Notes under the pieces: generated by a model
Databases searched by the model: none
What the model was told of the DNA's origin: nothing
The model's input: only the letters and a program-made list of their open reading frames with translations
NCBI RefSeq assembly: GCF_001695835.1
Contig: NZ_MBSO01000004.1
Location: 62,001 to 126,000, forward strand
Direction: 5' to 3'
Source of the DNA: Ensifer sp. LC11
GTDB lineage: Bacteria; Pseudomonadota; Alphaproteobacteria; Rhizobiales; Rhizobiaceae
DNA: 64,000 bases
Shown: positions 27,402 to 60,425 of the stretch, in pieces
Numbering within the stretch: position 1 is the first letter of the stretch
Layout: each line of letters starts with the position of its first letter
Translations under genes and position numbers: made by a program

Positions 27402-27491
27402 TGGCGGACAGAGAGGGATTCGAACCCTCGATACGCTTTCACGTATACACGCGTTCCAGGCGTGCGCCTTCAACCACTCGGCCACCTGTCC
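27402..27491 (-). tRNA. tRNA-Ser(GGA)
   Basis: The minus strand folds into a 90-nt class II tRNA: acceptor GGACAGG/TCTGTCC, D-arm, anticodon loop CTGGAAC with anticodon GGA, a long variable arm (GTATACGTG/AAAGCGTAT region) as expected for serine, T-arm GAGGG-TTCGAAT-CCCTC and an encoded CCA end. Confidence 0.97.
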
Positions 27492-31592: not shown

Positions 31593-32954
31593 ATGACAAG
31601 ACCAACAACACTCGCCAGCCTCTCGGTGCTCGTCCAAGGGGGCAAGCTGGACCCCGTCGATCTCGTCGACCAAACCTATGCCGCGATCGATGCGCATGGC
31701 GACTATGCGATCTTCACGGAACTTACGCGCGACCGCGCAAGGCGCGATGCAGAAGCCGCGTCGCGGCGGCTGAGAGCCGGGCGGTCTCTTGGTCTGCTCG
31801 ACGGCCTGCCGCTTGCCTGGAAGGACCTGTTCGACATGGCCGGCAGCGTGACAACTGCCGGCTCGACGGTGCTGCGGACGAGCGCCGCGGCAACGAAAGA
31901 CGCTCCTGTCGTCACCGCCGTTTCGGCTGCCGGCATGGTCAGCATCGGGCGCACCAACATGAGCGAGTTCGCCTTCTCCGGCCTCGGCATCAACCCGCAT
32001 TACGGCACGCCGAGAAACCCGGCCGCCACCGACGTCGAGCGCATCCCCGGCGGGTCCTCCTCCGGTTCAGGTGTTGCGGTCGCAGCCGGGCTGGTACCAG
32101 CGGCTATTGGTACCGATACCGGTGGCTCCGTCCGCATCCCTGCGGCACTGACGGGCATCGTCGGCTACAAGGCAACCCGCGGCCGCTATGCGATGAAGGG
32201 CGTGTTTCCGCTGGCCGAAAGTCTGGATTCGCTTGGGCCGCTCTGCCATACGGTGCAGGACGTCGTTTGGGTCGATGCCGCCATGCACGGGCTGACGGCG
32301 CCGACCGTGCGCCGCGCCGATCTCTCGGGCGTCGCGCTGGTCGTCCCGGAAACGATTGTCTTTGACGATGCGGAGCCGGAGGTCGTCGAAGCCTTCGAAG
32401 ATACGATCAGGCGATTGGAGAAGGCCGGCGTCACCGTCAGCCGGCGCGCTTTCCCGACTTTTTCGGCGATCTTCGGGCTCATGGCGCGGCACGGCGCACT
32501 GGTGACGGCCGAGGCCTATGCGCTTCACCGCCAGCGGCTGGCCGGTCCAGAAGCCAATGCCATGGACCCGCGCGTCGTCGCCCGCACCCGGCTCGGCGAA
32601 AAGATCACCATGCCGGACTATATCGCCCTGCTCGACGCCCGCGATCAGTTGATCCACGAGACGGTCGAAGGCTTGAGGCCGAACGAGCTCATCGCCCATC
32701 CGACGCTGCCGCATGTGGCGCCGCCGATCGCGCCGCTCATCGAAGACGACGAGCTGTTCTTCAAAACCAATGCCAAGACGCTGCGCAACACCTCGATCGG
32801 CAATTTCCTGGATTTCTGCGGCATCTCCATCCCGTGCGGGCTGGGCGCTGCCGAAATGCCCGTCGGTTTCCAGCTGGCCGCCCCGCATCACCAGGACGAC
32901 CGGCTGCTCGCCGTCGCGCTCTCTGCCGAGGCGATCATCTGGGGTGAGGCATGA
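31593..32954 (+). CDS. Amidase-signature family hydrolase
   Basis: A 453-residue amidase-signature enzyme. The catalytic triad is visible: Lys77 (PLAWKDLFD), cis-Ser155 in GGSSSGSG and Ser179 in DTGGSVRIPA, 24 residues apart as in the family. It cleaves an amide of a small molecule; the substrate is unknown. GGAGG stands 5 bases before the ATG. Its stop overlaps the start of the ROK kinase by four bases, and that gene overlaps cutC the same way, so the three are a translationally coupled operon next to the amino-sugar genes. Deacylation of an N-acyl sugar or peptide is a possible role. Confidence 0.88.
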   Translation: MTRPTTLASLSVLVQGGKLDPVDLVDQTYAAIDAHGDYAIFTELTRDRARRDAEAASRRLRAGRSLGLLDGLPLAWKDLFDMAGSVTTAGSTVLRTSAAATKDAPVVTAVSAAGMVSIGRTNMSEFAFSGLGINPHYGTPRNPAATDVERIPGGSSSGSGVAVAAGLVPAAIGTDTGGSVRIPAALTGIVGYKATRGRYAMKGVFPLAESLDSLGPLCHTVQDVVWVDAAMHGLTAPTVRRADLSGVALVVPETIVFDDAEPEVVEAFEDTIRRLEKAGVTVSRRAFPTFSAIFGLMARHGALVTAEAYALHRQRLAGPEANAMDPRVVARTRLGEKITMPDYIALLDARDQLIHETVEGLRPNELIAHPTLPHVAPPIAPLIEDDELFFKTNAKTLRNTSIGNFLDFCGISIPCGLGAAEMPVGFQLAAPHHQDDRLLAVALSAEAIIWGEA

Positions 32955-33862
32955 TCGTCTGTTTCGATATCGGCGGCTCGGCGATCAAGGGTGCGATCGT
33001 CCATTCGCGCGAGCGGATCTTTCCGCTGCCACGTCGAACGACCCCGCTCACCAACTTCCGCCAGTTCGTGCAGGTGCTCGAATCGGTGCTCGACGAAGCC
33101 GGTGGGCACCCGGATTGCGTGGCGATCTCGATCACCGGCGTCATCGATCCGGAGACGCGGCGGATCAAATGCGCCAATATCCCCTGTATCGACGGCCGCG
33201 AACTGGTGGCCGAACTCGAGGCGGCGCTGCATCTGCCGGTCAGGATCGCCAATGATGCGGACTGCTTTGCACTGGCCGAAGCCGGTGCCGGTGCCGGGCG
33301 CGGCCACCGCATCGTGTTCGGCGCGATCCTTGGCACCGGTGTCGGCGGCGGCCTGGTCATCGACGGCCGATTGATCAATGCCGATGGCGGCTTTGCCGGC
33401 GAGTGGGGGCACGGCCCGGCGATCGCGGCCGAAGCCGGCAATCCGCCGATTGCCATTCCCGCCTATGAATGCGGCTGCGGCCAGCGGCGCTGCGTCGATA
33501 CGGTCGGCGGCGCCCGTGGGCTGGAGCGCCTGCACCAGACCGCCCATGGCAAGACACTTTCGAGCCACGAGATCATCGAGGCCTGGCAAGCAGGCAATAC
33601 CGAGGCGAAGCGCACGGTCGAACTTCTCGTCGATCTTGTCAGCTCACCGCTGGCGCTCGTCATCAACATATCAGGCGCGACCATTGTGCCTGTCGGCGGC
33701 GGCCTTTCCAATTCCGAGGAGCTGCTTGCCGAGATCGACAGGGCGGTTCGTAGCCGGATTCTGAGGCAATTCGACCGACCCCTGGTGGTGCGTGGCGAAT
33801 GCCGAGTCGAGCCCGGCCTGATCGGCGCGGCACTGCTTGGATTGGGGGAAGAGAGAGTATGA
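32951..33862 (+). CDS. ROK-family sugar kinase
   Basis: A 303-residue ROK kinase: ATP-binding CFDIGGSAIKGAIV at the N-terminus, NDADCFALAEAGAGAGRG, GTGVGGGLVIDG, EWGHGP and the zinc-binding CGCGQRRCVDTVGG. ROK kinases with the E-x-G-H motif phosphorylate GlcNAc, ManNAc or glucose. With nagA, murQ and an amidase nearby, an N-acetyl amino sugar is the likely substrate (inference). The ATG at 32951 overlaps the amidase stop (ATGA) and its own stop overlaps the cutC start. Confidence 0.9.
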   Translation: MIVCFDIGGSAIKGAIVHSRERIFPLPRRTTPLTNFRQFVQVLESVLDEAGGHPDCVAISITGVIDPETRRIKCANIPCIDGRELVAELEAALHLPVRIANDADCFALAEAGAGAGRGHRIVFGAILGTGVGGGLVIDGRLINADGGFAGEWGHGPAIAAEAGNPPIAIPAYECGCGQRRCVDTVGGARGLERLHQTAHGKTLSSHEIIEAWQAGNTEAKRTVELLVDLVSSPLALVINISGATIVPVGGGLSNSEELLAEIDRAVRSRILRQFDRPLVVRGECRVEPGLIGAALLGLGEERV

Positions 33863-34584
33863 GCGGCATCAAGCTTGAAGTCTGCGTCGACGACGCCGAC
33901 GGCCTGTACGCGGCAATCGAAGGCGGCGCCGACCGCATCGAGCTTTGTGCGGCCCTTTCCGTCGGCGGTCTGACGCCCAATCCGGGGCTGATGGCGCTGG
34001 CCGGCCCGCCAGCGGTGCCCGTTTACGCCATGATCCGTCCGCGTCCCGGCGATTTCGTCTTCTCCGCTGCGGACCTCGACGTCATGCGCCGCGATATCGA
34101 CGCGGCACGCGCAGCCGGCCTCGCCGGTGTCGTGCTCGGTGCCTCGCTCGCTGGTGGCCGCCTCGACACCTCGATGCTCACCAAGCTCACGGGCCATGCG
34201 GCCGGGCTCGGAATGACGCTGCATCGCGCCTTCGATCTGGTGCCGGATTTCGCCGAGGCGATGGAGGTTGCGGTCGAGCTCGGTTTCGAGCGGATCCTGA
34301 CCTCGGGCGGCGCCAGAAGCGCGCCGCAAGCAGCCGATCAGCTCGCTGAAATCGTCTCTCTCGCCAAGGGCCGGCTGTCGGTCATGCCTGGATCCGGCGT
34401 CACGCTTGAGACGGTCGATGCGCTGCTCGACCGATTGACGGTCGGCGAAGTGCATTCCTCGTGTTCCGTTCGTGAGCCGGCTCAAGATCAGCGGATGGTC
34501 GACATGGGTTTCGTTTCGGCCGATCGCCGACGCACGGATGTGGCAACGGTCCGGGCGATGAAGGCGAAGCTTTCACAGCGCTGA
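33859..34584 (+). CDS. cutC: CutC-family protein
   Basis: A 241-residue TIM-barrel protein of the CutC family: LEVCVDDADGLYAAIEGGADRIELCAALSVGGLTPNPG at the N-terminus and RPRPGDFVFSAADLDVM, then ILTSGGA and MPGSGVTLETV. CutC was first linked to copper tolerance in E. coli but the enzymatic role is not established, and its repeated occurrence with sugar genes suggests a metabolic function. Its ATG overlaps the ROK kinase stop by four bases, so the two proteins are made together. A strong terminator follows. Confidence 0.92.
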   Translation: MSGIKLEVCVDDADGLYAAIEGGADRIELCAALSVGGLTPNPGLMALAGPPAVPVYAMIRPRPGDFVFSAADLDVMRRDIDAARAAGLAGVVLGASLAGGRLDTSMLTKLTGHAAGLGMTLHRAFDLVPDFAEAMEVAVELGFERILTSGGARSAPQAADQLAEIVSLAKGRLSVMPGSGVTLETVDALLDRLTVGEVHSSCSVREPAQDQRMVDMGFVSADRRRTDVATVRAMKAKLSQR

Positions 34585-34605
34585 CACGGGTGCTGCCTGA
34601 AATTG

Positions 34606-34641
34606 AAAAGCCCCGGAGCGATTGCGCCGTCCGGGGCTTTT
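34606..34641. terminator. Bidirectional terminator between cutC and nagA
   Basis: AAAAGCCCCGG (34606-34616) pairs with CCGGGGCTTTT (34631-34641): an 11-bp stem with A-tract and T-tract, able to stop transcription in both directions between convergent genes. Confidence 0.9.
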
Positions 34642-34658
34642 GCTTGGTAGCCTGAAGA

Positions 34659-35819
34659 TTAGGCCGCGTAGACCTGCGTGCCGGCGATCCATGTGGAGCC
34701 CATGGCGAGCTCCGGCGTCAAGAGCACGAAATCGGCATCCGCGCCCGCCTTCAGCCGGCCCTTGTGGGTGGCAAGCCCCATGGCATCGGCCGGATAGGCG
34801 GAGGCCATGCGCAACGCTTCCTCGACCGGGAGACCGAGCTTCTCGTGCACGAAGCGGACCGACGAGAGCATATCGATGTCGGCGCCGGCAAGCGTGCCGT
34901 CGGCAAGCGTCAGACGTCCGCCCTCACGCAGGATCTCGCGACCGTTCAGCTGGAAGCTCGTCATGTCGGTGCCAATCGGCGACATGGCGTCGGTCACCAG
35001 GAAGATCTGGCCCGGGCCCACCTTCGCACGCAGCGCCACGCCCATCGAGGCCGGCTCGACATGGTAGCCGTCGGCGATCAGGCCCGCATGGAGCGTGCCG
35101 GTGGCCAAAGCCGCGCCGACAACGCCCGGTTCGCGATGACCGAGGCCGCTCATGGCGTTGAAGAGATGGGTCACCGTGCGGGCACCCGCCTTGGCGTAGG
35201 CAACGGCGGTTTCATAGCCGACGTCCGTGTGGCCGAGGCTGACGACGGCACCGGCATCGGCCAGCGCCCGCACCTGCTCCTTGGTGGCGTTTTCCGGCGC
35301 CACGGTGACCATCAGCACGCCGAGCGCCTTGGCGCAGGCGAGCATTTCGGCGAGGTCGGCGTCATCCATGGGGCGGATGAGTTTCGGATCGTGGGCGCCC
35401 TTGCGCGCCACCGAAAGATGCGGACCTTCGAGATGCAGACCGAGGAAGCCGGGCACGCCTTCGGCCTTGGCTTGAAGTCCGGCCTGGATGGTCGCCGTTC
35501 TCACTTCGCGCGTGTCGGTGATCAGCGTCGGCAGCAGCGCCGTGGTGCCGAACTTGGCATGCGCCGAACAGATCTGTCGGATGCCCTCGACGGTCGGCTC
35601 CTCGTTCAGAAGCGCACCACCGCCGCCGTTCACCTGCAGGTCGATGAAGCCCGGCACGAGAAGCATGCCATGCGCATCGATCCTTTCGGCATCGGCTGGG
35701 ACATCCGCCGCGGCGACGATCGCCTTGACGCGGCCGCCCTCGATGACAAGGGCGCAGCCGTCGTGCCATTCGACGCCGTCGAACAGCCGGGCGCCGGTGA
35801 TTGCCTTCCTCTCGCTCAT
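34659..35819 (-). CDS. nagA: N-acetylglucosamine-6-phosphate deacetylase
   Basis: NagA removes acetate from GlcNAc-6-phosphate to give GlcN-6-phosphate. The 386-residue amidohydrolase has VPGFIDLQVNGGGG (the metal-site region where NagA enzymes have H/Q), GLHLEGPHLS with the conserved metal-binding glutamate, SLGHTDVGYE, THLFNAMSGLGHREPGVVG and LVTDAMSPIGTD. It overlaps the SIS-isomerase stop by four bases and is the last gene of the BadF kinase-gntR-SIS-nagA operon. Confidence 0.95.
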   Translation of the reverse strand: MSERKAITGARLFDGVEWHDGCALVIEGGRVKAIVAAADVPADAERIDAHGMLLVPGFIDLQVNGGGGALLNEEPTVEGIRQICSAHAKFGTTALLPTLITDTREVRTATIQAGLQAKAEGVPGFLGLHLEGPHLSVARKGAHDPKLIRPMDDADLAEMLACAKALGVLMVTVAPENATKEQVRALADAGAVVSLGHTDVGYETAVAYAKAGARTVTHLFNAMSGLGHREPGVVGAALATGTLHAGLIADGYHVEPASMGVALRAKVGPGQIFLVTDAMSPIGTDMTSFQLNGREILREGGRLTLADGTLAGADIDMLSSVRFVHEKLGLPVEEALRMASAYPADAMGLATHKGRLKAGADADFVLLTPELAMGSTWIAGTQVYAA

Positions 35820-36838
35820 CTCGTCTCCGTTACCTTCTTGAGGCTTGCCGGCGCATCGGGGTTAAGACCGCGCGAGCGCGACCAGGCTTCGACGAAACCG
35901 TAGAACGGCAGGATCAGCGTCAGCGCGTCCGTGATCGGATGGCCCGTCTCGACGAACGGCAGGCGCTTGGCCTTGGCCGCGCGGCTCGAGGTAGCATGAA
36001 CCACAGCACCCTTTTCCGCCATACCGTCGGCGATACCGGCAACCGAAGTTTCCGCCGCGTCACGCGCGGCAAGCGTCAGCACCGGGAATTTGGCGCCGAC
36101 CAGCGCCACCGGACCATGCAGCACTTCTGCCGCGGAATAGGCTTCCGCATGCATGCCCGAGGTTTCCTTGAACTTCAGTGCGGCTTCGCTGGCGATCGCC
36201 AGCGCCGGGCCGCGGCCGAGCACGTAGAGCGATTCCGCCTCGCCGAGATCGTCGGCAAAGGTCTGCCAGTCGAGCTTAACGGCCTTGGCAAACTGGTTCG
36301 GAAGATCCGCGACCGCCCGCTTAAGCGCGGCATCTCCGGTCCATTCCCCGAGCACGGCAAGGCCGGCAACGATCGAATTGACGTAGGACTTGGTCGCAGC
36401 GACGGCGATTTCAGGGCCGGCGAGAATGTCCAGCGGATGCGTGCAGGCCTCGGAAATCGGCGAGGGCAGCGTGTTGGTGAGCGCGATCGAGACCGCACCG
36501 GCATCGGTCGCGGCCTGCGCCATGGCGACGATATCCGGGCTCTTGCCCGATTGCGAAATTGCGATGGCCGCCGCCCCGCCGAGCTTCAGCTTGGCGCCGT
36601 AGATCGAGGCGAGCGAAGGACCGAGCGAGGCAACCGGCCGACCGGCCTGCAGTTCGATCGCATATTTCAGGAAGAGTGCCGCATGGTCGGAGGAGCCACG
36701 GGCGATCGTTACCAGGAAGGCCGGATCCTTGGCGCGCAAGGCAGCACCGGCTGCCTTCAGCTGGTCGGCGGAACGCTCCAGCAAACGCTGGGCGGCTTCG
36801 GGGATCTCGTCGATTTCTCGGCGCATATTGGTCTGCAT
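35816..36838 (-). CDS. SIS-domain aminosugar isomerase/deaminase (NagB-II/AgaS-like)
   Basis: A 340-residue protein with two SIS domains and no glutaminase domain. Key segments: ARGSSDHAALFLKYAIE, ISQSGKSPDIVAMAQAA, TKSYVNSIVAGLAVL, and GRGPALAIASEAALKFKETSGMHAEAYSAAEVLHGP. The layout resembles NagB-II, the GlmS-like GlcN-6-phosphate deaminase, which fits just before nagA: product fructose-6-phosphate plus ammonia. AgaS-type isomerase is the alternative. The ATG at 36836-36838 has AAAGGA 7 bases upstream. Confidence 0.88.
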   Translation of the reverse strand: MQTNMRREIDEIPEAAQRLLERSADQLKAAGAALRAKDPAFLVTIARGSSDHAALFLKYAIELQAGRPVASLGPSLASIYGAKLKLGGAAAIAISQSGKSPDIVAMAQAATDAGAVSIALTNTLPSPISEACTHPLDILAGPEIAVAATKSYVNSIVAGLAVLGEWTGDAALKRAVADLPNQFAKAVKLDWQTFADDLGEAESLYVLGRGPALAIASEAALKFKETSGMHAEAYSAAEVLHGPVALVGAKFPVLTLAARDAAETSVAGIADGMAEKGAVVHATSSRAAKAKRLPFVETGHPITDALTLILPFYGFVEAWSRSRGLNPDAPASLKKVTETR

Positions 36839-36866
36839 GGTCAATTCCTTTCTGCGGGCCGTCGCT

Positions 36867-37631
36867 TTAGGATTCCGACAGCGTCAGTTCCGCGACAAAG
36901 TCATAGGCGTCGCCCCGGTAGAGCGAGCGGGTGAATTCGACGACGCGTCCCGATGCGAGATAGGAGACGCGTTCGATGGAAAGGCCGGCCGAGCCGACGG
37001 CAACGCCGAGCATCGAGGCATCCGGATCCTTGATGTTGCAGGCGGAGATGCGCTGCACGGCGCGAACCGGGCGCGCGCGGGTCTTGTCGAGCGCGGAATA
37101 GAGCGACGAGGTAACGGTCTGCGGATCGGGCAGGAACTCCGCCGAAATGCTGGCGCGTTCGATCGCGAGCGGCATGTCGTCGGCGATGCGCAGGCGGCCG
37201 AGGCGGGCAACCAGCGCGTCGGCCGGCAGGCCGAGCGCCATCATCTCGTCCGGCGAGGGATGGAACAGGCCGCGTTCAAGCCAACGGGCGTGCGTATTCA
37301 GACCACGGCGCGCCATATCCTCGGTGAACGAGGTCAGCCGCGACAGCGACTGCTGCACCTTGGAGACCGGCTTGACCACGAAGGTGCCGGAGCCATGGCG
37401 GCGAACCAGCAATCCGTCGCGCACAAGATCGTCGACCGCCTTGCGCACAGTGACACGACTGATGTTGGCGTAGTCGGCAAGATCACGCTCGGGCGGCAGC
37501 GCGTCGCCATGATTGAGCTTTCCCGATTGGATCGCCTCTTCGAGTGATTGCCGAAGCTTCAGATAGAGCGGGCCCGAGCCTCCGGCCTGCAAGCCCTCGA
37601 GCGGCAGAATGGATGCGAGCTGGTGCGTCAT
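36867..37631 (-). CDS. GntR/HutC-family regulator (UTRA domain), NagQ/NagR-like
   Basis: A 254-residue regulator with an N-terminal GntR winged helix (LYLKLRQSLEEAIQSGKLNHGDALPPERDLADYANISRVTVRKAVDDLVRDGLLVRRHGSGTFV) and a C-terminal UTRA ligand domain (from about 100). GntR/UTRA regulators such as DasR and NagR respond to GlcNAc-6P or GlcN-6P, the intermediates of this pathway. Its start overlaps the BadF kinase stop by four bases. Probable targets are the two matching direct-repeat sites at 38534-38551 and 38666-38683. Confidence 0.9.
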   Translation of the reverse strand: MTHQLASILPLEGLQAGGSGPLYLKLRQSLEEAIQSGKLNHGDALPPERDLADYANISRVTVRKAVDDLVRDGLLVRRHGSGTFVVKPVSKVQQSLSRLTSFTEDMARRGLNTHARWLERGLFHPSPDEMMALGLPADALVARLGRLRIADDMPLAIERASISAEFLPDPQTVTSSLYSALDKTRARPVRAVQRISACNIKDPDASMLGVAVGSAGLSIERVSYLASGRVVEFTRSLYRGDAYDFVAELTLSES

Positions 37632-38512
37632 GCGCCGGCCCTCGCCTGTGAGCCAAAACGCTGGGCGGCAAGCGCAACGGCGCCGGTCAATGCGTCAGCT
37701 TCCGCTTCGACGATGAGCGCCTGGTGCCGTTCGGCAAGCCATGGGCGATAGAGCGGCGCCAGTCCGCCGAGCAGACACAGCCTGGCGCTTCCCCTTGCGA
37801 CCACGACGTCAAGCGCCTCATCCACCGTGAGCGCTGCGGCCTTCAGCAGCCGTACGGCGACGGGGTCGCCGTCTGCAGCACCCTCGAAAACGCGCGGCGC
37901 ATAGCGACCAAACTCGCCTGGTTTGGCAAGCCGAGCGAAATCGACGACGTCGCGCGGATCGTTGTTGAACTCCGCCATGACGGATGCGGTGACCGCGGAG
38001 CCTTCGTGGATGTTGTCGAAGGCGAGCAGGCTTTCCTGCAGGAGCGCGTGGCCGATGCGGGCGCCGCTGCCATGATCGCCGATGGTGAAGCCCCAGCCGC
38101 CGACATAGCTGACAGTCTCGCCCTGGCGCAGGATATAGATGGTGCCGGTGCCGAGGATGGCGACGGCGCCGTCCTGGTTGCCGAGCGCGCCCTGAAACGC
38201 GATCAGACCGTCGGATTCGATTTCGGCGGCAGCGAAGGGAAGACGGCGCTTTACGTAATGCACGGCATCGCCGACATTGTGCCCGGCCACACCAACAATC
38301 GCCTTGGCGTCCGCGATACCCTGGGGATCGAGGCCCGCCTCTTGGAAGGCGGCACGGGAGGCTTCACCGATATTGGAAAGCGCCGTCTCCGGATCGGTCA
38401 GGATATTGGCGGCGCCGGCCTTGCCGCGCCCGAGTATACGCCCGTCCAGCGACGCCACGGCCGCCCGGCAGCTCGTTCCGCCACCATCGATTCCAATCAG
38501 GTAATTTGTCAT
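37628..38512 (-). CDS. BadF/BadG/BcrA/BcrD-type amino-sugar kinase
   Basis: A 294-residue ASKHA-fold kinase: IGIDGGGTSCRAAV phosphate-1 motif, GVAGHNVGD, DGLIAFQGALGNQDGAVAILGTG (adenosine/phosphate region) and WGFTIGDHGSGARIG. The BadF group includes GlcNAc kinases (NagK) and the N-acetylmuramic acid/GlcNAc kinase MurK. With murQ divergent and nagA in the same operon, phosphorylation of MurNAc and/or GlcNAc is the best inference. GGAGG stands 5 bases before the ATG at 38510-38512; the next gene overlaps by four bases. Confidence 0.9.
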   Translation of the reverse strand: MTNYLIGIDGGGTSCRAAVASLDGRILGRGKAGAANILTDPETALSNIGEASRAAFQEAGLDPQGIADAKAIVGVAGHNVGDAVHYVKRRLPFAAAEIESDGLIAFQGALGNQDGAVAILGTGTIYILRQGETVSYVGGWGFTIGDHGSGARIGHALLQESLLAFDNIHEGSAVTASVMAEFNNDPRDVVDFARLAKPGEFGRYAPRVFEGAADGDPVAVRLLKAAALTVDEALDVVVARGSARLCLLGGLAPLYRPWLAERHQALIVEAEADALTGAVALAAQRFGSQARAGA

Positions 38513-38533
38513 GAGCACCTCCGGCCACTGAGG

Positions 38534-38551
38534 ATACCAAAAAAATACCAA
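38534..38551 (-). promoter_or_regulatory. Direct-repeat regulatory site before the kinase-nagA operon
   Basis: On the minus strand TTGGTATTTTTTTGGTAT: two TTGGTAT copies 11 bp apart, 22 bp before the kinase start. The same 18-mer (one change) lies before murQ in the opposite orientation. Confidence 0.6.
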
Positions 38552-38665
38552 TAACCAAGCCTGAATCCATCTGCACTTTCGATTTCGTTGCAATACATTG
38601 AATTTTATAAGCTAATTTAGCTGATCTATTTTTTCCGGCGCCAAAAGTTAAATTCTTCTGGACAA

Positions 38666-38683
38666 TTGGTATTTTTTTGGCAT
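38666..38683 (+). promoter_or_regulatory. Direct-repeat regulatory site before murQ
   Basis: TTGGTATTTTTTTGGCAT on the plus strand, 28 bp before the murQ start, matching the site before the divergent operon in 17 of 18 positions. AGCTAATTTAGCT (38610-38622), a perfect palindrome, sits midway between the two. Confidence 0.6.
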
Positions 38684-38711
38684 TAATTTCAACCGAGAGG
38701 AGACACGACCC

Positions 38712-39608
38712 ATGCCGTCAGTGAAGACCGAAGAGCGTCACGACAACGCCAAGGGCCTGGATCTTATGCATCCGGCGCTGGCGCTTCGACTGCTCGCATC
38801 CGGGCAGCAAGCCGCCGCCAAGGCGGTTGACGGCGCGATTGAGTCGATCTCCGCAGCCGCCTCGATCGCCGCGGAAAGCCTCGCTTCCGGCCGGCGTCTC
38901 GCCTATGCTGGCGCAGGCAGCTCCGGGCTGATGGCAATGGCCGATGCGCTCGAACTGCCCGGCACCTACGGCATTGCCCAGGAGCAGATCGTTATCCTGC
39001 TCGCCGGTGGCGCTGCCAGCCTCAGCGATCTGGCAGGTGGCTATGAAGACGATATGGACCTTGCCCGCGACGACGTGCGCAAGGCCGGCATCGGTGCGGG
39101 CGACTGTCTGGTTTCCGTTTCCGCCAGCGGCTCCACCCCTTACGCCCTTGCCGCTGCCGACGAGGCACGCAAGCTCGGCGCCAAGGTGATTGCTGTCGCC
39201 AACAACCCGGGTGCCGCCCTCTTCAACGACGCCGATGTTTCGATCCTACTGCAGACACCGCCGGAAGTGATCTCCGGCTCGACCCGCATGGGTGCCGGCA
39301 CGGCGCAGAAGATCGCCTTCAACATGTTCTCGACACTGGTCGGTATCCACCTCGGCCACGTGCTCGACGGCCACATGGTCAACCTGCGGGCCGACAATAT
39401 CAAGCTGCACGGCCGCGCCATTCGCATCGTCACCGATGTCACCGGCATCAGCGCCGCCGAGGCCGGCCGACTGATCACCATGGCTGCCGGCTCGGTCAAG
39501 GTCGCGATCCTTCTCGCTTCCGGCGCGAAGGACGTCGCGGCAGCGGAGGCCGCACTCAAAGAAGCCAAGCAGAACCTGCGCCGGGCGATCGATATCGTCT
39601 CGGCCTGA
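38712..39608 (+). CDS. murQ: N-acetylmuramic acid 6-phosphate etherase
   Basis: MurQ cleaves the D-lactyl ether of MurNAc-6-phosphate to give GlcNAc-6-phosphate and D-lactate. The 298-residue protein has a SIS core with AGAGSSGLMAMADALELPGTYG, SASGSTPYALAAADEARKLG and the signature STRMGAGTAQKIAFNMFSTLVGIHLGHV. Length is that of E. coli MurQ. GAGGAG stands 9 bases before the ATG. It is the first gene of a unit with an ABC importer, divergent from the kinase-gntR-SIS-nagA operon that would use its product. Confidence 0.95.
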   Translation: MPSVKTEERHDNAKGLDLMHPALALRLLASGQQAAAKAVDGAIESISAAASIAAESLASGRRLAYAGAGSSGLMAMADALELPGTYGIAQEQIVILLAGGAASLSDLAGGYEDDMDLARDDVRKAGIGAGDCLVSVSASGSTPYALAAADEARKLGAKVIAVANNPGAALFNDADVSILLQTPPEVISGSTRMGAGTAQKIAFNMFSTLVGIHLGHVLDGHMVNLRADNIKLHGRAIRIVTDVTGISAAEAGRLITMAAGSVKVAILLASGAKDVAAAEAALKEAKQNLRRAIDIVSA

Positions 39609-39664
39609 ACAATTTCGGGATCCAAACCGCGCCGAAGCGGCGCCCATAAAAAGGGAGAACCTGC

Positions 39665-40924
39665 ATGACCCGTACAACAATCAAAGGCCTGCTGCTCGCT
39701 TCGAGCATTCTCGGCACGGCCGGGCTGGCGCACGCCGAGGACGTGACGCTGACCATCGAAAGCTGGCGCAACGACGACCTGGCGATCTGGCAGGAAAAGC
39801 TGATCCCGGCCTTCGAAGCCAAGAACCCGGGCATCAAGGTCAAGTTCGCGCCGATGGCGCCGACTGAATACAATGCCGCGCTCAACGCCAAGCTCGATGC
39901 CGGCTCCGCGGGTGACCTCGTTACCTGCCGTCCGTTCGACGTTTCGCTCGAACTCTACAACAAGAAGCATCTCGCCGACCTGACGGCGCTGCCGGGCATG
40001 GAAAACTTCTCGCCGGTCGCCAGGTCCGCCTGGACCACCGATGACGGCAAGGCCACCTTCTGCGTGCCGATGGCATCGGTCATCCACGGCTTCATCTACA
40101 ACAAGGACGCCTTCGACCAGCTCGGCATCCAGATCCCGACGACGGAAGCCGAATTCTTCGCCGCCCTCGACAAGATCAAGGCCGACGGCAACTACATCCC
40201 GATGGCGATGGGCACCAAGGACCTCTGGGAAGCCGCGACCATGGGCTACCAGAACATCGGCCCGAACTACTGGAAGGGTGAAGAAGGTCGCGCTGCGCTG
40301 ATCAAGGGCGAGCAGAAGCTGACCGACGAGCCGTGGGTCGAGCCCTACCGCGTTCTTGCCAAGTGGAAGGACTATCTCGGCGACGGCTTCGAAGCCCAGA
40401 CCTATCCGGACAGCCAGAACCTCTTCACGCTCGGCCGCGCCGCGATCTATCCGGCCGGCTCTTGGGAAATCGGCCTGTTCAACACCCAGGCCCAGTTCAA
40501 GATGGGCGCCTTCCCGCCGCCGGTGAAGAACGCCGGCGACACCTGCTACATCTCGGACCACAACGACATCGGCATCGGCCTCAATACCAAGAGCGCCCAT
40601 GCCGAACAGGCCAAGACCTTCCTGACCTGGGTCGCTTCGCCTGAATTCGCCGACATCTACGCCAATGCGCTGCCGGGCTTCTTCAGCCTCAACTCGACCC
40701 CGGTGAAGATGACCGATCCGCTCGCTCAGGAATTCGTCTCCTGGCGCGAAAAGTGCAAGCCGACGATCCGCTCGACCTACCAGATCCTGGCGCGCGGCAC
40801 GCCGAGCCTCGAAAACGAGACCTGGGTCGAATCGGCCAACGTCATCAACGGCACGGATACGCCGGAGGTTGCGGCCGAGAAGCTGCAGAAGGGCCTCGAC
40901 GCCTGGTACAAGCCGGCGAAGTAA
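39665..40924 (+). CDS. ABC sugar transporter, substrate-binding protein (family 1)
   Basis: A 419-residue periplasmic binding protein with a signal peptide ending AHA-E (residues 1-24). LTIESWRNDDLAIWQEKLIPAFEAKNPGIKVKF is the usual first lobe of carbohydrate-binding family 1, and AIYPAGSWEIGLF and GLNTKSAHAEQAKTFLTWVASPEF are conserved later segments. AAGGGAG precedes the ATG. It lies 56 bp after murQ and before the permeases, so the ligand is probably MurNAc, GlcNAc or a cell-wall or chitin fragment (inference). A long palindromic gap separates it from the permease genes. Confidence 0.93.
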   Translation: MTRTTIKGLLLASSILGTAGLAHAEDVTLTIESWRNDDLAIWQEKLIPAFEAKNPGIKVKFAPMAPTEYNAALNAKLDAGSAGDLVTCRPFDVSLELYNKKHLADLTALPGMENFSPVARSAWTTDDGKATFCVPMASVIHGFIYNKDAFDQLGIQIPTTEAEFFAALDKIKADGNYIPMAMGTKDLWEAATMGYQNIGPNYWKGEEGRAALIKGEQKLTDEPWVEPYRVLAKWKDYLGDGFEAQTYPDSQNLFTLGRAAIYPAGSWEIGLFNTQAQFKMGAFPPPVKNAGDTCYISDHNDIGIGLNTKSAHAEQAKTFLTWVASPEFADIYANALPGFFSLNSTPVKMTDPLAQEFVSWREKCKPTIRSTYQILARGTPSLENETWVESANVINGTDTPEVAAEKLQKGLDAWYKPAK

Positions 40925-40948
40925 GAAGAGACGTAAGCGCAACAGGTT

Positions 40949-41118
40949 CCCTCCCCTTTTGGGGGAGGGTCGGCCCTACAGCGCCGCGCGTCTCAGACGC
41001 GCAAAGAGCACCTTGAACCGGATGGAATTTAAGGATGCCGTAGGGACCGGGCGGGGCGACATGCCGCAAGAGGCACTCCCCCAGCCGAAGCGTCACCGGC
41101 CTCCCCTAGTGGGGGGCC
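40949..41118. repeat. Mosaic of palindromic repeats between binding-protein and permease genes
   Basis: The 347-bp gap holds CCCTCCCC-TTTTG-GGGGAGGG (40949-40969), the palindrome GCGCGTCT-C-AGACGCGC (40986-41002) with CGCAAAG after it, and GGCCTCCCC-TAGT-GGGGGGCC (41098-41118). These resemble rhizobial intergenic repeats known from memory. No gene is seen between 40925 and 41271. Such structures often protect the binding-protein end of a transporter mRNA. Confidence 0.6.
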
Positions 41119-41271
41119 ACCGACGCAGTCGTTTGCAAAAGAACGCGATAGACTTAACCTTCGTCATGAGCCCTTAAAAAGGGGCAGATGGCATACGGCG
41201 AGACCGGCCGTGTGGCGTCGGTGCGCATCGTGATTGTCTGGGGAACCGGTCTTCTAGAAACGGATGGATCA

Positions 41272-42222
41272 ATGAGTGACGCTCTTTCAGTGCAAGACGG
41301 AAAGCCGACCGCAAGGCGGCCGAAGCGCTGGCACATCCTCGTCTTCCTGCTCCCGGCCTTCCTGGTCTATTCGGCGGTGATGATCCTGCCGCTGATCGAG
41401 ACGCTCAGGCTCTCTCTGTTCAACACGGTCGACGGCCAGCCGGCCTTCGTCGGCCTTGCCAATTTCCAGACGCTGTTTGGAGAAGAGCGCTGGGCCCACG
41501 ACTTCTGGAACGCACTGAAGAACAACGTCATCTTCTTCATCATTCACATGTGCGTACAGAACCCGATCGGCGTGGCGCTCGCCGCCATGCTGTCGATCCC
41601 GAAGCTGCGATTCGTCACCTTCTACCGCACGGCAATCTTCCTGCCGACACTGCTCTCCTTCGTGATCGTCGGCTTCATCTGGAAGCTGATCCTGTCGCCG
41701 ATCTGGGGCGTGTCGCCCTGGATCCTCGACCTCGTTGGCCTGAAGTCGCTGTTTGCACCCTGGCTCGGGAAGCCGGGTTCCGCGCTCATCGCCGTGTCGC
41801 TGATCTCGGTGTGGCAATATGTCGGCATCCCGATGATGCTGATCTACGCAGCGCTGCTCAATATTCCCGATGAGGTGATCGAGGCTGCGGAATGCGACGG
41901 CGTCACCGGCTGGAGCCAGTTCTGGAAAATCAAGCTGCCGCTGATCCTGCCGGCCATCGGCATCATCTCGATCCTAACCTTCGTCGGCAACTTCAACGCC
42001 TTCGACCTGGTCTACACGGTGCAGGGCGCGCTTGCCGGCCCCGACGGCTCGACCGACATTCTCGGCACGTTGCTCTACCGCACCTTCTTCGGTTTCCAGC
42101 TGCAGCTCGGTGACCGCTCCATGGGCGCGACAATCGCCACGGTGATGTTCCTGATCATCCTCGCCGGCGTGTCGCTCTACCTCTTCGTCATCCAGCGCCG
42201 CATGCGCCGCTACCAGTTCTGA
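41272..42222 (+). CDS. ABC sugar transporter permease (MalF/UgpA-type)
   Basis: A 316-residue inner-membrane protein with six helices and the ATPase-contact loop EAAECDGVTGWSQFWKIKLPLILPAI (EAA-x3-G-x9-I-x-LP). The N-terminus is cytoplasmic and basic (KPTARRPKRWH). It pairs with the next gene to form the channel of a carbohydrate importer of the CUT1 class. The ATG at 41272 lies after a weak purine-rich site; an upstream in-frame start reaching the repeat region is less likely. Next gene 11 bp away. Confidence 0.93.
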   Translation: MSDALSVQDGKPTARRPKRWHILVFLLPAFLVYSAVMILPLIETLRLSLFNTVDGQPAFVGLANFQTLFGEERWAHDFWNALKNNVIFFIIHMCVQNPIGVALAAMLSIPKLRFVTFYRTAIFLPTLLSFVIVGFIWKLILSPIWGVSPWILDLVGLKSLFAPWLGKPGSALIAVSLISVWQYVGIPMMLIYAALLNIPDEVIEAAECDGVTGWSQFWKIKLPLILPAIGIISILTFVGNFNAFDLVYTVQGALAGPDGSTDILGTLLYRTFFGFQLQLGDRSMGATIATVMFLIILAGVSLYLFVIQRRMRRYQF

Positions 42223-42233
42223 GGAGACCGGAG

Positions 42234-43073
42234 ATGTCGAAAGCACGCGATTCCATCTTCCGCACCGGCTTCGTCCATGTGGCACTGATCGCCTACACGC
42301 TCGTGTCACTGTTTCCGGTGTTCCTGACGATCATCAACTCGTTCAAGGATCGCAACGCGATCTTCAGGGCACCGCTGACGATCCCGACGCCGCAAACCTT
42401 CAGCCTGATCGGTTATGAAACCGTTCTCGGCCAGGGCGACTTCGCCACCTATTTCCAGAACAGCTTCATCGTCACGATCGTCTCGATCGCGCTGGTGCTG
42501 CTCTTCGGGGCGATGGCCGCCTTCGCGCTGTCGGAGTACCGCTTCCGCGGCAACACCGTCATGGGCCTCTATCTGGCGATCGGCATCATGATCCCGATCC
42601 GGCTTGGCACCGTCGCCATCCTCCAGGGCATGGTCGCCGCCAACCTGGTCAACACGCTGACGGCGCTGATCCTGGTCTACACGGCGCAAGGGTTGCCACT
42701 CGCGATCTTCATCCTCTCGGAATTCATGCGCACGGTTTCGGATGACCTGAAAAATGCCGGGCGCATCGACGGGCTATCGGAATACGCGATCTTCTTCCGC
42801 CTGGTGCTGCCGCTGGTCAGGCCGGCGATGGCGACCGTCGCGGTGTTCACGATGATTCCGATCTGGAACGACCTCTGGTTCCCGCTGATCCTCGCTCCGG
42901 CCGAAGCGACCAAGACCGTGACGCTCGGTTCGCAGATCTTCATAGGCCAGTTCGTCACCAACTGGAATGCGGTGCTTGCGGCGCTGTCGCTCGCCATCCT
43001 TCCCGTACTCGTCCTCTACGTCATCTTCTCGCGGCAGCTGATCCGCGGCATCACGGCAGGAGCAGTCAAGTGA
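42234..43073 (+). CDS. ABC sugar transporter permease (MalG/UgpE-type)
   Basis: A 279-residue permease with six helices. The EAA-like loop reads LKNAGRIDGLSEYAIFFRLVLPLVRPA, where the first alanines are changed to KNA but glycine and LP are kept, as is common in the second CUT1 permease. It completes the importer with the preceding permease and the ATPase at 44147. Its TGA stop overlaps the GTG start of the Gfo/Idh gene (GTGA), showing coupled translation. Confidence 0.93.
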   Translation: MSKARDSIFRTGFVHVALIAYTLVSLFPVFLTIINSFKDRNAIFRAPLTIPTPQTFSLIGYETVLGQGDFATYFQNSFIVTIVSIALVLLFGAMAAFALSEYRFRGNTVMGLYLAIGIMIPIRLGTVAILQGMVAANLVNTLTALILVYTAQGLPLAIFILSEFMRTVSDDLKNAGRIDGLSEYAIFFRLVLPLVRPAMATVAVFTMIPIWNDLWFPLILAPAEATKTVTLGSQIFIGQFVTNWNAVLAALSLAILPVLVLYVIFSRQLIRGITAGAVK

Positions 43074-44134
43074 GTGCAAGCAGCAAACCGGTCCGGGTCC
43101 TCGTTGCAGGGCTCGGCAACATGGGGCGCAGCCATGCGCTCGCCTATCACAACAATCCCGGCTTCGAGATCGTCGGCCTCGTCAACCGTTCGAAGGTGCC
43201 GCTGCCGGAGGAGCTGAGCGGCTACGAGATCCATCCCGACTTCAAAACGGCGCTTGCCGAACTGAAGCCGGAACTCTGCTCGATCTGCACCTATTCCGAC
43301 AGCCATGCCGACTTTGCGGTCATGGCATTTGAAGCGGGTGCCGACGTCTTCGTCGAAAAGCCGCTCGCAACCACCGTCGCCGACGCAGAGCGCGTTGTCG
43401 CGGCGGCCAAGAAGCACGGCCGCAAGCTGGTGATCGGCTACATCCTGCGCCACCATCCCTCGTGGATCCGGCTGATTGCCGAAGCCCGCAAGCTTGGTGG
43501 TCCCTACGTCTTCCGCATGAACCTGAACCAGCAGTCGAGCGGACCGACCTGGGAAACGCACAAGTCGCTGATGAAGACGACGTCGCCGATCGTCGATTGC
43601 GGCGTGCACTATGTCGACGTCATGTGCCAGATCACCGACGCCAAGCCGGTGGAAGTGCGTGGCATGGGGCTTCGCCTCTCCGACGAGATCGCGACCGACA
43701 TGTATAACTACGGTCACCTGCAGGTGATCTTCGAGGATGGTTCCGCCGGCTGGTACGAAGCCGGTTGGGGCCCGATGATCTCGGAAACCGCGTTCTTCGT
43801 GAAGGACGTGATGTCGCCAAAGGGATCCGTGTCGATCGTCATGGACCAGAACGCCAAGTCCGATGACATCGACATGCACACCAAGACCGCTGTCATCCGG
43901 CTGCACAATGCCGAGACCGGCCCAGACGGCCGTTTCCTCAAACCCGACGAGGACCTGAAAATGGACGGTGAACCCGGTCACCAGGAACTCTGCGACCGCG
44001 AACAGGCCTATGTGCTGAAGGCCATTCGCGAAGACATCAACCTCGACCGTCACATGAACGACGCCGTCCAGTCCCTGCGCATCTGCCTTGCGGCGGACGA
44101 AAGCGTGCGGACCGGCAGACCAGTCAAACTCTAA
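43070..44134 (+). CDS. Gfo/Idh/MocA-family NAD(P)-dependent oxidoreductase
   Basis: A 354-residue sugar-type dehydrogenase: Rossmann motif VLVAGLGNMGRSHALAY, the family EKPL (DVFVEKPLATTVADAE) with its catalytic lysine, and the D-x-G-x-H motif in PIVDCGVHYVDVM. The family oxidises a hydroxyl of sugars, sugar acids or glycosides. Its place inside the importer operon, between permeases and ATPase, means its substrate is probably the imported sugar or a derivative. This step is not part of the classical MurNAc or GlcNAc route and is a point of interest. Start is a GTG at 43070. Confidence 0.92.
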   Translation: MSASSKPVRVLVAGLGNMGRSHALAYHNNPGFEIVGLVNRSKVPLPEELSGYEIHPDFKTALAELKPELCSICTYSDSHADFAVMAFEAGADVFVEKPLATTVADAERVVAAAKKHGRKLVIGYILRHHPSWIRLIAEARKLGGPYVFRMNLNQQSSGPTWETHKSLMKTTSPIVDCGVHYVDVMCQITDAKPVEVRGMGLRLSDEIATDMYNYGHLQVIFEDGSAGWYEAGWGPMISETAFFVKDVMSPKGSVSIVMDQNAKSDDIDMHTKTAVIRLHNAETGPDGRFLKPDEDLKMDGEPGHQELCDREQAYVLKAIREDINLDRHMNDAVQSLRICLAADESVRTGRPVKL

Positions 44135-44146
44135 GGGGGCAACCAG

Positions 44147-45148
44147 GTGGGATCGCTTCAACTCAAATCCATCCGCAAGGCCTATGGTAGCCATGAGGTG
44201 CTGAAGGGCATTGACCTCGAGGTGAAGGACGGCGAGTTCGTCATCTTCGTCGGACCATCCGGCTGCGGCAAGTCGACCTTGCTGCGCACCATTGCCGGCC
44301 TCGAGGACGCGACCTCGGGCAGCGTGCAGATCGACGGCACCGAAGTCGGCCACGTGGCGCCCGCCAAGCGCGGCATCGCCATGGTGTTCCAGTCCTATGC
44401 GCTCTATCCGCACCTGACGGTGAAGGACAATATGGGGCTTGGCCTGAAGCAGGCCGGCAAGCCGAAGGCGGAGATCGACGACAAGGTCGGCAAAGCGGCG
44501 AGCATGCTGTCGCTCGACCCCTACCTCGCCCGTCGCCCGGCCGAACTTTCGGGCGGCCAGCGTCAGCGCGTGGCGATCGGCCGCGCCATCGTGCGCGAAC
44601 CGAAGCTCTTCCTGTTCGACGAGCCGCTTTCGAACCTCGATGCGGCGCTGCGCGTCAACACCCGGCTCGAAATCGCAAGGCTGCATCGCAGCCTGAAGGC
44701 GACGATGATCTATGTGACCCACGACCAGGTGGAGGCAATGACGCTCGCCGACAAGATCGTCGTGCTCAACGCCGGCAAGATCGAGCAGATCGGCTCGCCG
44801 ATGGATCTCTACAACCGGCCCGCCAACGTCTTCGTCGCCGGCTTCATCGGCTCGCCGCAGATGAACTTCATCGACGGCGCGCGCCTTGGCGACACCCGCG
44901 CCAAGACGATCGGCATCCGCCCTGAGCATATGGCGCTTTCGCGCGAAAGCGGCGACTGGAAGGGTAAGGTGGTTCACGTCGAGCATCTCGGCGCCGACAC
45001 CATCGTCTATCTCGAATCCGAACAGGCCGGCACCATCACCGTGCGGCTCTTTGGCGAACATCGCTACGCGCCCGACGACATCGTCTATGCGACGCCGATG
45101 GTCGGCAGCATGCACCGTTTCGGCGCCGACGATCGGATCCTCGACTGA
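44147..45148 (+). CDS. ABC sugar transporter ATP-binding protein (UgpC/MsmK-type)
   Basis: A 333-residue ATPase: Walker [11 protein letters not shown]-loop [13 protein letters not shown], signature [14 protein letters not shown], Walker [14 protein letters not shown] and the switch histidine in [14 protein letters not shown]. The C-terminal part (about 235-333) is the TOBE/MalK-like regulatory domain. The start is a GTG at 44147 with GGGGG 7 bases upstream, 12 bp after the oxidoreductase. It powers the CUT1 importer. A terminator follows at 45191-45235. Confidence 0.95.
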
Positions 45149-45302: not shown

Positions 45303-45417
45303 AGCTTTCCGGTATTTGCCGACCCTGATACCGGTTCCGCTTCCCTTCACTTCCGGACCGCACGGGCCTCTTGCGAGATGCACCGGCCGCCTGCGGTCAC
45401 CGAATATGGACATCGCT

Positions 45418-46626: not shown

Positions 46627-46635
46627 GTTTGATTG

Positions 46636-54926: not shown

Positions 54927-55102
54927 AGCCACATTTGACTCCTCAAATCCTAGTCAACGGCACCGAGTGATGCCGTCTTCTGGTGATTGGCCTGTCCCCC
55001 GCCCGCACCAGATGAGGACAAAGGCCTTATCCCCCTCTCCGGGCCTTTGTCCCGTTTTCAGGAAGCCGCCACGGCGCCGCCTCCGCGCCGTGGCGGTTTT
55101 TT
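54927..55102 (+). ncRNA. Candidate sRNA between polA and a MarR gene (alpha-r7-like)
   Basis: This gene-free region on the plus strand contains a run of hairpins: TTGACT/AGTCAA with loop CTCC (54935-54957), CGGCA/TGCCG (54958-54975), an 11-bp stem GGACAAAGGCC/GGCCTTTGTCC (55016-55052, then CGTTTT) and the strong terminator at 55066-55102. A TTGTAA-17 bp-CTATCC promoter lies at about 54892-54920. From memory, the rhizobial sRNA family alpha-r7 (Smr7C) is encoded between polA and a MarR gene; position and structure agree. Ends are estimates; a shorter RNA ending near 55057 is possible. Confidence 0.55.
55066..55102 (+). terminator. Strong Rho-independent terminator with no gene upstream
   Basis: CCGCCACGGCGC (55066-55077) pairs with GCGCCGTGGCGG (55085-55096), 12 bp, followed by TTTTTTG. 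No plus-strand protein gene precedes it, so it supports the sRNA call. Confidence 0.85.
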
Positions 55103-60419: not shown

Positions 60420-60425
60420 AGTCAT

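Follow-up and report, generated by a model that had tools for sequence, protein, structure and literature searches.

How could free N-acetylmuramic acid (MurNAc) be brought into the cell and degraded where the genes at hand encode an ABC importer and a sugar kinase? This question is raised by a locus in the window, a stretch of 64,000 nucleotides from Ensifer sp. LC11, a soil bacterium akin to the nodule-forming rhizobia. All genes named by the first-pass annotation were found at or inside positions 31593-45148 with Pfam and NCBIfam, and its divergent operons were confirmed. The true unit is two of them, a leftward operon nagA-nagB2-gntR-badF (34659-38512, minus strand) and a rightward operon murQ-sbp-perm1-perm2-gfo-abc (38712-45148, plus strand), whose parts are of known kinds (Table 1). 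No PTS permease, the feature of MurP, was present at the locus, where the transport genes were those of an ABC system. We lean towards reading the two operons as a GntR-controlled regulon by which the bacterium would grow on two amino sugars of the cell wall, N-acetylglucosamine (GlcNAc) and MurNAc.

Table 1. Features of the locus and of the adjacent operon (positions in the window)
Feature	Position	Strand	Basis or remark
AS-family amidase, adjacent operon	31593..32954	+	NF004766 over cut-off
ROK kinase, NagK-like, adjacent operon	32951..33862	+	Pfam; PDB neighbours
CutC, adjacent operon	33859..34584	+	PF03932; ORF opens 33799, start 33859 inferred
nagA, N-acetylglucosamine-6-phosphate deacetylase	34659..35819	-	TIGR00221 over equivalog cut-off
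nagB2, SIS-type glucosamine-6-phosphate deaminase, NagB-II like	35816..36844	-	best NCBIfam NF046059, under cut-off
GntR/UTRA regulator, NagQ-like	36867..37631	-	PF00392 + PF07702; operators in divergent gap
BadF/NAGK-family kinase, proposed GlcNAc/MurNAc kinase	37628..38512	-	PF01869
operator 1, TACCAA-N5-TACCAAT tandem repeat	38534..38552	+	0 mismatches; conserved
operator 2, TGCCAA-N5-TACCAAT tandem repeat	38665..38683	-	conserved
murQ, MurNAc-6-phosphate etherase, MurQ-type SIS protein	38712..39608	+	NF003915 over cut-off
periplasmic sugar-binding protein, family-1 solute-binding	39665..40924	+	PF01547
CUT1 permease 1	41188..42222	+	PF00528; start perhaps 41272
CUT1 permease 2	42234..43073	+	PF00528
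Gfo/Idh/MocA oxidoreductase	43070..44134	+	PF01408 + PF22725
MalK-type ABC ATPase	44147..45148	+	PF00005 + PF08402

All 80 named rhizobial loci, which had been selected by MurQ, contained the complete ten-gene core, and the locus was largely intact in 60 family loci picked by the binding protein alone, so the gene arrangement is not due to chance, and the synteny that had been proposed as a check in other rhizobia was indeed found. Among the latter 60 loci, permease 1 and permease 2 were each present in all, the MalK-type ATPase in 59, badF, gntR and gfo in 57 each, nagA in 53, nagB2 in 51 and murQ in 47. Orthologues of the binding protein occurred in 62 of 121 family genomes and in 17 of 289 class genomes, with the genome's own copy counted in both. 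Within the genome itself, NagA, MurQ and the BadF kinase were each the sole member over the cut-off of the searched family.

In the proposed pathway, free GlcNAc and, most likely, MurNAc would be imported by the CUT1 ABC system and phosphorylated at C6 by the BadF/NAGK-family kinase. MurQ would then remove the D-lactyl ether, giving GlcNAc-6P and D-lactate from MurNAc-6P, NagA would deacetylate GlcNAc-6P, and the SIS-type NagB-II protein would convert GlcN-6P into fructose-6P and ammonia. MurQ matched the subfamily model NF003915 over its full length (318.4 bits, cut-off 168) and stayed below the equivalog cut-off of TIGR00274 (224.7 bits against 302). In an alignment of 114 MurQ rows (three of the window's own, two of E. 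coli and 109 others), Glu83 and Glu114 in the numbering of E. coli K-12 MurQ, which we take to be the catalytic residues, were kept in every row. By family match and both glutamates, the window's MurQ is a probable MurNAc-6P etherase. NagA passed the equivalog cut-off of TIGR00221 (306.7 bits, cut-off 225.65), and the best model for the SIS protein was NagB-II NF046059, at 281.9 bits (7e-84) and under the cut-off of 430; nagB2 adjoined nagA in all 15 class loci having both the binding protein and murQ.

The ORF of the BadF kinase (37628-38593, minus strand) opens at a TTG at 38593, and the ATG at 38512 is the presumed start. Membership of the BadF/NAGK family and the catalytic Asp were confirmed by PF01869 and by alignment to 1zc6, 8zo3 and the NAGK structures 2ch5/2ch6. 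Its nearest PDB chains were 1zc6, a probable GlcNAc kinase, and 8zo3, a MurNAc/GlcNAc kinase, and its sole NCBIfam model was NagK_SO3507 (NF046058, 192.9 bits, under the equivalog cut-off of 370). In the text on the MurK kinases, small residues at two positions are said to admit the lactyl group, together with the authors' warning that MurNAc binding cannot be read from the sequence alone (PMC10465942). In the window's kinase both residues are small: S precedes the catalytic D, and GGWG is present. Among the named rows, 79 of 80 had S or T before the catalytic D, mostly with GGWG, as did 48 of 57 in the family set and 12 of 17 in the class set, and by the published rule most BadF kinases would be free of the bulky block against the lactyl group. 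The rule is weak, since 8zo3, deposited as a MurNAc/GlcNAc kinase, carries ND, and F, N, W, D or H stood at this position in 9 of the 57 family rows and 5 of the 17 class rows.

Two copies of one tandem operator lay in the divergent gap, with no convincing copy elsewhere in the genome. Operator 1 was located just before the presumed badF start and was not met in 100 shuffles of the window, while operator 2 sits 28 bp before murQ. Operators were found in 139 of 151 divergent gaps, with two or more in 118; among 3020 base-shuffled gaps, 10 contained one operator and none contained two. In the class set, only 7 of 14 gaps had an operator. NagQ is described as a GntR regulator of GlcNAc use with tandem-repeat sites (PMC5343134). 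Here, too, a GntR-UTRA regulator adjoins nag genes and a tandem-repeat operator lies upstream of the operons, the likeness being one of repeat arrangement. The regulator would repress both operons from the two operators, and an amino-sugar phosphate would presumably release it.

As for the cargo, the import system probably serves GlcNAc in the first place, with MurNAc as second cargo, because 13 of the 60 family loci were without murQ (9 of these 13 genomes had no murQ match at E 1e-30) and because a Ruegeria importer of compatible layout, as compared from printed locus tags alone, serves GlcNAc. The report on R. pomeroyi nagTUVW (SPO1835, 1837-1839) assigns GlcNAc import by mutant growth and drawdown; against this, pooled TnSeq on GlcNAc in that paper enriched nagTUVW mutants (PMC10130141). 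In the class outside the family, 15 of 16 genomes, with 12 family codes, had murQ immediately next to the binding protein, and 13 of these 15 pairs were in the window's gene order. The murQ-badF pair was also met without this transporter, in 4 of 4 longer class loci and in 6 of 22 short ones (flanks up to about 1.5 kb). We infer a kinase-plus-ABC route to MurNAc-6P and regard it as well supported, since the MurQ glutamates are kept, murQ is present in 47 of the 60 loci and it stands beside the binding protein in those 15 genomes. The first-pass annotation was upheld in part: its PTS-independent MurNAc route agrees with the anatomy, the conserved catalytic residues, the class-wide murQ/binding-protein pairing and the shared operators, its larger substrate (see below) was not supported, and it had left out the probable priority of GlcNAc, to which the 13 loci lacking murQ point.

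The same observations bear on a possible, less probable reading, in which transporter and kinase serve GlcNAc (or chitobiose) only and MurQ takes MurNAc-6P that AnmK makes within the cell from recycled anhydro-MurNAc, the excess of the MurU shunt spilling over into catabolism. It would agree with the 13 loci that retain the transporter without murQ and with the published GlcNAc importer (PMC10130141). AnmK and a TsaE-APH/NTP-transferase (AmgK-MurU-like) pair are also present elsewhere in the genome, and for the relative A. tumefaciens a fosfomycin screen points to AnmK, MupP, AmgK and MurU for MurNAc recycling, with muropeptide import by YejABEF (PMC9790009). Against it, murQ adjoins the binding protein in nearly all the class genomes above, and here the two share one upstream operator, so that uptake and MurQ would be induced together. 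Of 30 short class loci, 4 had AnmK near murQ and 14 had badF there, 8 of the latter also with the binding protein. Moreover, murQ seems unnecessary for recycling because AnmK and the AmgK-MurU-like pair are at hand, and these shunt parts make it less likely that murQ serves anhydro-MurNAc recycling only, a possibility raised by the first-pass annotation itself.

A cargo consisting of a GlcNAc-containing disaccharide (such as GlcNAc-MurNAc or chitobiose), opened or modified by the Gfo/Idh enzyme in an NAD-dependent step before the kinase acts, is quite improbable. It draws on the core position of gfo (57 of 60 family loci), which stays with the pathway in 5 class loci where it has moved to the other of the two operons, on the EKP and DxGxH motifs, which all 149 rows carry, and on NCBIfam resemblance to UDP-GlcNAc 3-dehydrogenase and, weakly, disaccharide 3-dehydrogenase. 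The predicted model of the binding protein, mediocre at pLDDT 71.9, had many oligosaccharide binders as nearest folds, chitin-oligosaccharide binders among them, and these neighbours would not favour a monosaccharide cargo. However, all the Gfo/Idh matches were far below cut-offs, Pfam revealed no glycosidase among the ten core genes, and of 15 class loci gfo was not seen in two and only weakly matched in one. In the preferred GlcNAc and MurNAc pathway the enzyme would be a member with no step assigned.

The first-pass annotation had taken amidase, ROK kinase, CutC and Gfo/Idh together as pointing to a modified or larger substrate. Joint action of the first three with the core on a muropeptide-like compound is very improbable indeed, and the suggestion was not sustained: Gfo/Idh is a core gene, whereas the other three make up an operon of their own, limited to some lineages and outside the regulon. 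A larger substrate is not indicated by them, because the operator scan found no operator at their operon and because near the binding protein the amidase occurred in only 5 of the 60 family loci (two of them weak), against 10 for ROK and 14 for CutC. A hairpin parts the converging cutC and nagA, and ROK-cutC also occurs apart from this locus, having been met in 10 of the 20 unlinked cutC loci that were retrieved. The nearest named PDB kinases of ROK were the GlcNAc kinases 7p7i and 4db3, its best match 2ap1 being deposited as a putative regulator; under the printed MurK rule, its ND and EWGH residues would exclude MurNAc (PMC10465942). In favour of a link, of the 38 cutC genes counted in 61 genomes, 15 were no more than 10 kb away from the binding protein, and at least three different arrangements were seen.

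If the GlcNAc and MurNAc reading is true, many soil and plant-associated Alphaproteobacteria would eat the cell-wall sugar of dead neighbours via an ABC importer, and catabolism (MurQ) would be split from recycling (AnmK, AmgK-MurU) inside one genome. A literature search turned up no ABC-importer route for free MurNAc. The wider proposal, that a dedicated pathway of ABC import, kinase and etherase for exogenous muramic acid is widespread in Alphaproteobacteria and distinct from wall recycling, with an NAD-dependent Gfo/Idh redox step on a sugar of GlcNAc-MurNAc type, is speculative and rather unlikely. On the GlcNAc and MurNAc reading the locus would also offer a clean two-operator regulon and a conserved oxidoreductase awaiting a step.

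Compared with the E. coli murQP system, whose fetched K-12 order was murR-murQ-murP, the locus shares MurQ with both catalytic Glu, followed by NagA and a GlcN-6P deaminase, which is NagB in E. coli and a NagB-II-like SIS protein here. In E. coli the PTS protein MurP imports and phosphorylates under the regulator MurR, whereas here an ABC system, a kinase and a GntR regulator are found. R. pomeroyi nagTUVW likewise encodes an alphaproteobacterial ABC importer, and its printed locus tags leave out one number where gfo would lie; that importer is demonstrated only for GlcNAc (PMC10130141). The NagQ regulon of Proteobacteria has the GntR regulator, tandem-repeat operators and nagA and nagB in its core in common with the locus, but its core includes a PTS transporter, and the word murQ is absent from the main text (PMC5343134). 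The MurK MurNAc/GlcNAc kinases of Clostridium acetobutylicum and Tannerella forsythia are NAGK-related actin-like sugar kinases as well, and by the printed rule both they and BadF would be without a bulky block at the lactyl pocket, although the sequence relation is distant and BadF is accompanied here by an ABC importer and murQ (PMC10465942). A. tumefaciens recycling shares AnmK and the AmgK-MurU-like pair with the host genome; its route rebuilds UDP-MurNAc, in a main text without the word MurQ (PMC9790009), whereas the MurQ encoded here would lead MurNAc-6P into catabolism.

Use of both GlcNAc and MurNAc was the best reading of the locus, held with slightly better than even confidence. All genes named in the first-pass annotation were confirmed in the window by Pfam and NCBIfam scans, and the synteny in other rhizobia, suggested there as a check, was found: nagA-nagB2-gntR-badF diverged from murQ-sbp-perm1-perm2-gfo-abc (sbp encoding the binding protein), and this ten-gene order was present in all 80 named-genome loci obtained with MurQ as query (80 kept of 136 confirmed stretches). 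The closest were from Ensifer and Sinorhizobium, with MurQ identity up to 94%, followed by Rhizobium, Pararhizobium, Shinella, Agrobacterium and others. Since conservation of murQ in MurQ-selected loci is circular, the test was redone with the binding protein as bait. An orthologue (E <= 1e-100) existed in 62 of 121 family genomes, the own genome included, and 60 neighbourhoods from the other 61 were compared, genome G344 being omitted with its match at a contig edge. Both permease genes were present in 60/60 of these loci, the ATPase gene in 59, badF, gntR and gfo in 57 each, nagA in 53, nagB2 in 51, murQ in 47, cutC in 14, rok in 10 and the amidase gene in 5 (two at 26 and 31% identity), the lower counts being minima as contigs sometimes stop within the locus. 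Loci L136, L139 and L147 kept gntR, badF, the binding protein, permeases, gfo and ATPase, with no nagA, nagB2 or murQ seen in the fetched stretch.

A sample of 289 genomes from the class had the binding protein in 17 (E <= 1e-90) and MurQ over the cut-off in 38. murQ directly adjoined the binding-protein gene in 15 of the 16 class genomes outside the family, 13 of them in the window's order; the sole exception was genome G065, which had a contig with the binding protein only and no MurQ over the cut-off. The 15 adjacent loci, covering 12 family codes, all carried nagA and nagB2, with gntR in 14, badF in 13 (one displaced) and gfo in 12, plus one weak gfo match. NagA, MurQ and the BadF kinase were each the sole family member over the cut-off searched in the own genome, so that conversion of GlcNAc-6P to GlcN-6P there probably depends on this locus alone. 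NagB2 is not claimed as the sole GlcN-6P deaminase, since two Glucosamine_iso family (PF01182) proteins over the cut-off were encoded elsewhere in the genome; this family includes 6-phosphogluconolactonase too.

Features of the locus and of the rest of the window
Feature	Position	Strand	Remark
Small SRP RNA gene	13946-14042	-	
tRNA gene	27405-27491	-	
Amidase-ROK-cutC operon	31593-34584	+	adjoins nagA
cutC	33859-34584		
Hairpin	34606-34641		long, A and T tails, between converging cutC and nagA
nagA-nagB2-gntR-badF	34659-38512	-	
Operator 1	38534-38552	+	tandem repeat TRCCAA-N5-TACCAAT, badF/murQ gap
Operator 2	38665-38683	-	tandem repeat TRCCAA-N5-TACCAAT, badF/murQ gap
murQ-sbp-perm1-perm2-gfo-abc	38712-45148	+	
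146-base stretch	40925-41070		folds better than 198/200 shuffles
Hairpin	40949-40969		strong, between binding-protein gene and first permease gene
Efflux pair	45316-49776		membrane-fusion/RND (HlyD-type + AcrB-type), after locus
Small RNA ar7	54955-55102	+	alphaproteobacterial, over Rfam gathering score
Small RNA ar14	60303-60422	-	alphaproteobacterial, over Rfam gathering score

The operator repeat did not occur in 100 shuffles of the window, and a looser pattern with two mismatches was at chance level (9 observed, 9.2 expected), so only the exact pair was counted. The gap was measurable in 151 of 158 loci; 139 of these gaps carried one site or more, and 118 carried two or more. By set, an operator was present in 79/80 named, 53/57 family and 7/14 class gaps. 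Base-shuffled gaps gave one site in 10/3020 and two in none. A genome-wide scan returned 15 sites against 17 for a control pattern, with no convincing further regulon member; the loose pattern was matched exactly at one further place, on contig C23, which lacked the A-rich core of the gap pair. The hairpin behind the binding-protein gene is of a kind which often maintains high binding-protein mRNA.

E83 and E114 (E. coli numbering) were retained in 114/114 aligned MurQ rows (3 of the window's own, 2 from E. coli and 109 others). Loss of the catalytic base through an E114 to glycine change was ruled out, as numbering on E. coli K-12 MurQ showed both glutamates. A NagS-type GlcNAc-6P dehydratase was likewise ruled out as the identity of the murQ product: NagS forms a separate clade related to MurQ in the accessible text of its description (PMC12680351), and the protein encoded here scored far better with MurQ models and chains. 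Clusters of murQ, badF and nagA were also observed in alphaproteobacterial loci L225-L228, where none of the few neighbours scanned was a sugar transporter gene.

The BadF kinase aligned best with 1zc6 (probable GlcNAc kinase), then with 8zo3 (deposited as a MurNAc/GlcNAc kinase). MurNAc is hindered by a bulky residue at MurK positions 133-135, or by Asn at T94, according to the accessible part of the MurK study (PMC10465942). Ser or Thr preceded the catalytic Asp in BadF orthologues of 79/80 named, 48/57 family and 12/17 class rows, and the other site of the rule was mostly GGWG; the neighbouring ROK kinase had ND in 71/71 and EWGH in 72/72 rows counted. By this rule the BadF kinase could take MurNAc and the ROK kinase could not, which is weak evidence, because the MurK authors warn in the same text that MurNAc binding is not identifiable from sequence (PMC10465942), and 8zo3 carries ND although named a MurNAc/GlcNAc kinase.

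Less probably, MurQ might serve cell-wall recycling instead, and it could drain MurNAc-6P made by AnmK, which is present in the genome. In the same genome a nucleotidyltransferase gene comes after a TsaE-APH gene, an AmgK-MurU-like arrangement. The available text of an A. tumefaciens fosfomycin screen points to AnmK, MupP, AmgK and MurU in MurNAc recycling, with YejABEF as the importer (PMC9790009), and Caulobacter crescentus, without MurQ, is described as using the MurU route (PMC13046382, in part); MurQ is thus probably not required for recycling. badF lay beside murQ in 4/4 long-fetched class loci having murQ without this transporter. In short class loci, where flanks no longer than roughly 1.5 kb make the counts minima, badF was near murQ in 14/30 (8/8 that showed the binding protein, one of them the window's own, plus 6/22 of the rest) and AnmK in 4/30.

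MurNAc as the sole cargo is disfavoured, because murQ was absent from 13 of the 60 family loci, its absences were scattered on the binding-protein tree, and Ruegeria nagTUVW is a GlcNAc importer; the adjacency of murQ and the binding-protein gene outside the family, together with the shared operator, argues for MurNAc as a second cargo beside GlcNAc. Much of the remainder was retained in the 13 murQ-less loci. In nine of these genomes nothing matched murQ at E 1e-30, while the other four had a match elsewhere; no residual murQ was seen in the leaders among the output listed. The gap could be measured in 11 of the 13, and 8 of these kept two operators and 3 had none. On the binding-protein tree, the absence of murQ from 14 rows required no fewer than 12 changes against a shuffled mean of 13.0, and starred branches forced at least 8, counts which cannot separate gain from loss. 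We lean to loss of murQ, because 13 of 16 non-family loci keep it in place and two more have it beside the binding-protein gene in another order.

The amidase-ROK-cutC operon and gfo had been taken as extras outside known MurNAc pathways, pointing to a modified or larger substrate. This was not borne out: the operon heads toward nagA and stops at a hairpin, likely a two-way terminator (not listed by a consensus terminator scan of the window), has no operator and is confined to some lineages. The Gfo/Idh gene, unlike these three, is a core gene which accompanies the pathway genes, with its motifs in 149/149 rows, and in five class loci it sits in the other operon, still together with the pathway. 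ROK and cutC also pair up independently of the locus: 20 of the 23 unlinked cutC genes were fetched, and 10 of these had a ROK gene directly upstream, with a divergent one in one more. Yet across 61 genomes 15 of 38 cutC genes lay no further than 10 kb from the binding-protein gene, in at least three arrangements; chance would place about 0.4% of them in such a 20-kb interval, given a genome of 5 Mb, although related genomes are not independent. This clustering is a lead on CutC and does not speak for a larger substrate. Named for copper homeostasis, cutC accompanies a ROK sugar kinase in the window and in part of the loci L189-L208; in L189, L190 and L192 it is flanked by genes of Dpp/Opp-type transporters. 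That CutC acts in sugar catabolism seems a testable idea. Homologues of the efflux pair occurred in 68/80 and 67/80 named stretches (a few of them elsewhere in the stretch) and only 6/60 family loci, and the pair is probably a mere lineage neighbour.

The binding-protein fold was a predicted model of medium confidence, and its structural neighbours bind many different sugars. GapMind reportedly assigns the S. meliloti orthologue, SMc02869-SMc02873, to GlcNAc uptake. The literature found on SMc02873 consisted of a proteomics table, and no paper was found for six neighbouring tags; a GlcNAc kinase and transporter matter for GlcNAc use in S. meliloti, given without tags in the accessible text (PMC11378808). 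In Ruegeria pomeroyi, nagTUVW (SPO1835, SPO1837-1839) was proposed by GapMind as a GlcNAc importer, and the available account reports growth on GlcNAc reduced by 78% and drawdown by 93% in an SPO1839 mutant (PMC10130141). The skipped tag, SPO1836, corresponds to the place of gfo here, a likeness of layout alone. In alpha- and betaproteobacteria GlcNAc use is regulated by NagQ, a GntR-type protein with tandem-repeat sites in the available description (PMC5343134); the regulator here resembles it in type and in such sites, compared by description rather than motif. In the literature searched, mostly outside subscription journals and partly in excerpt, no ABC importer for free MurNAc was found, and this locus was not found described as a MurNAc system; import of MurNAc or muropeptides by MurP, AmpG and YejBEF, the Tannerella MurT transporter, MurK kinases and GlcNAc ABC importers are known in those sources. 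The enzyme classes are all known, and what is new is their combination and its class-wide spread.
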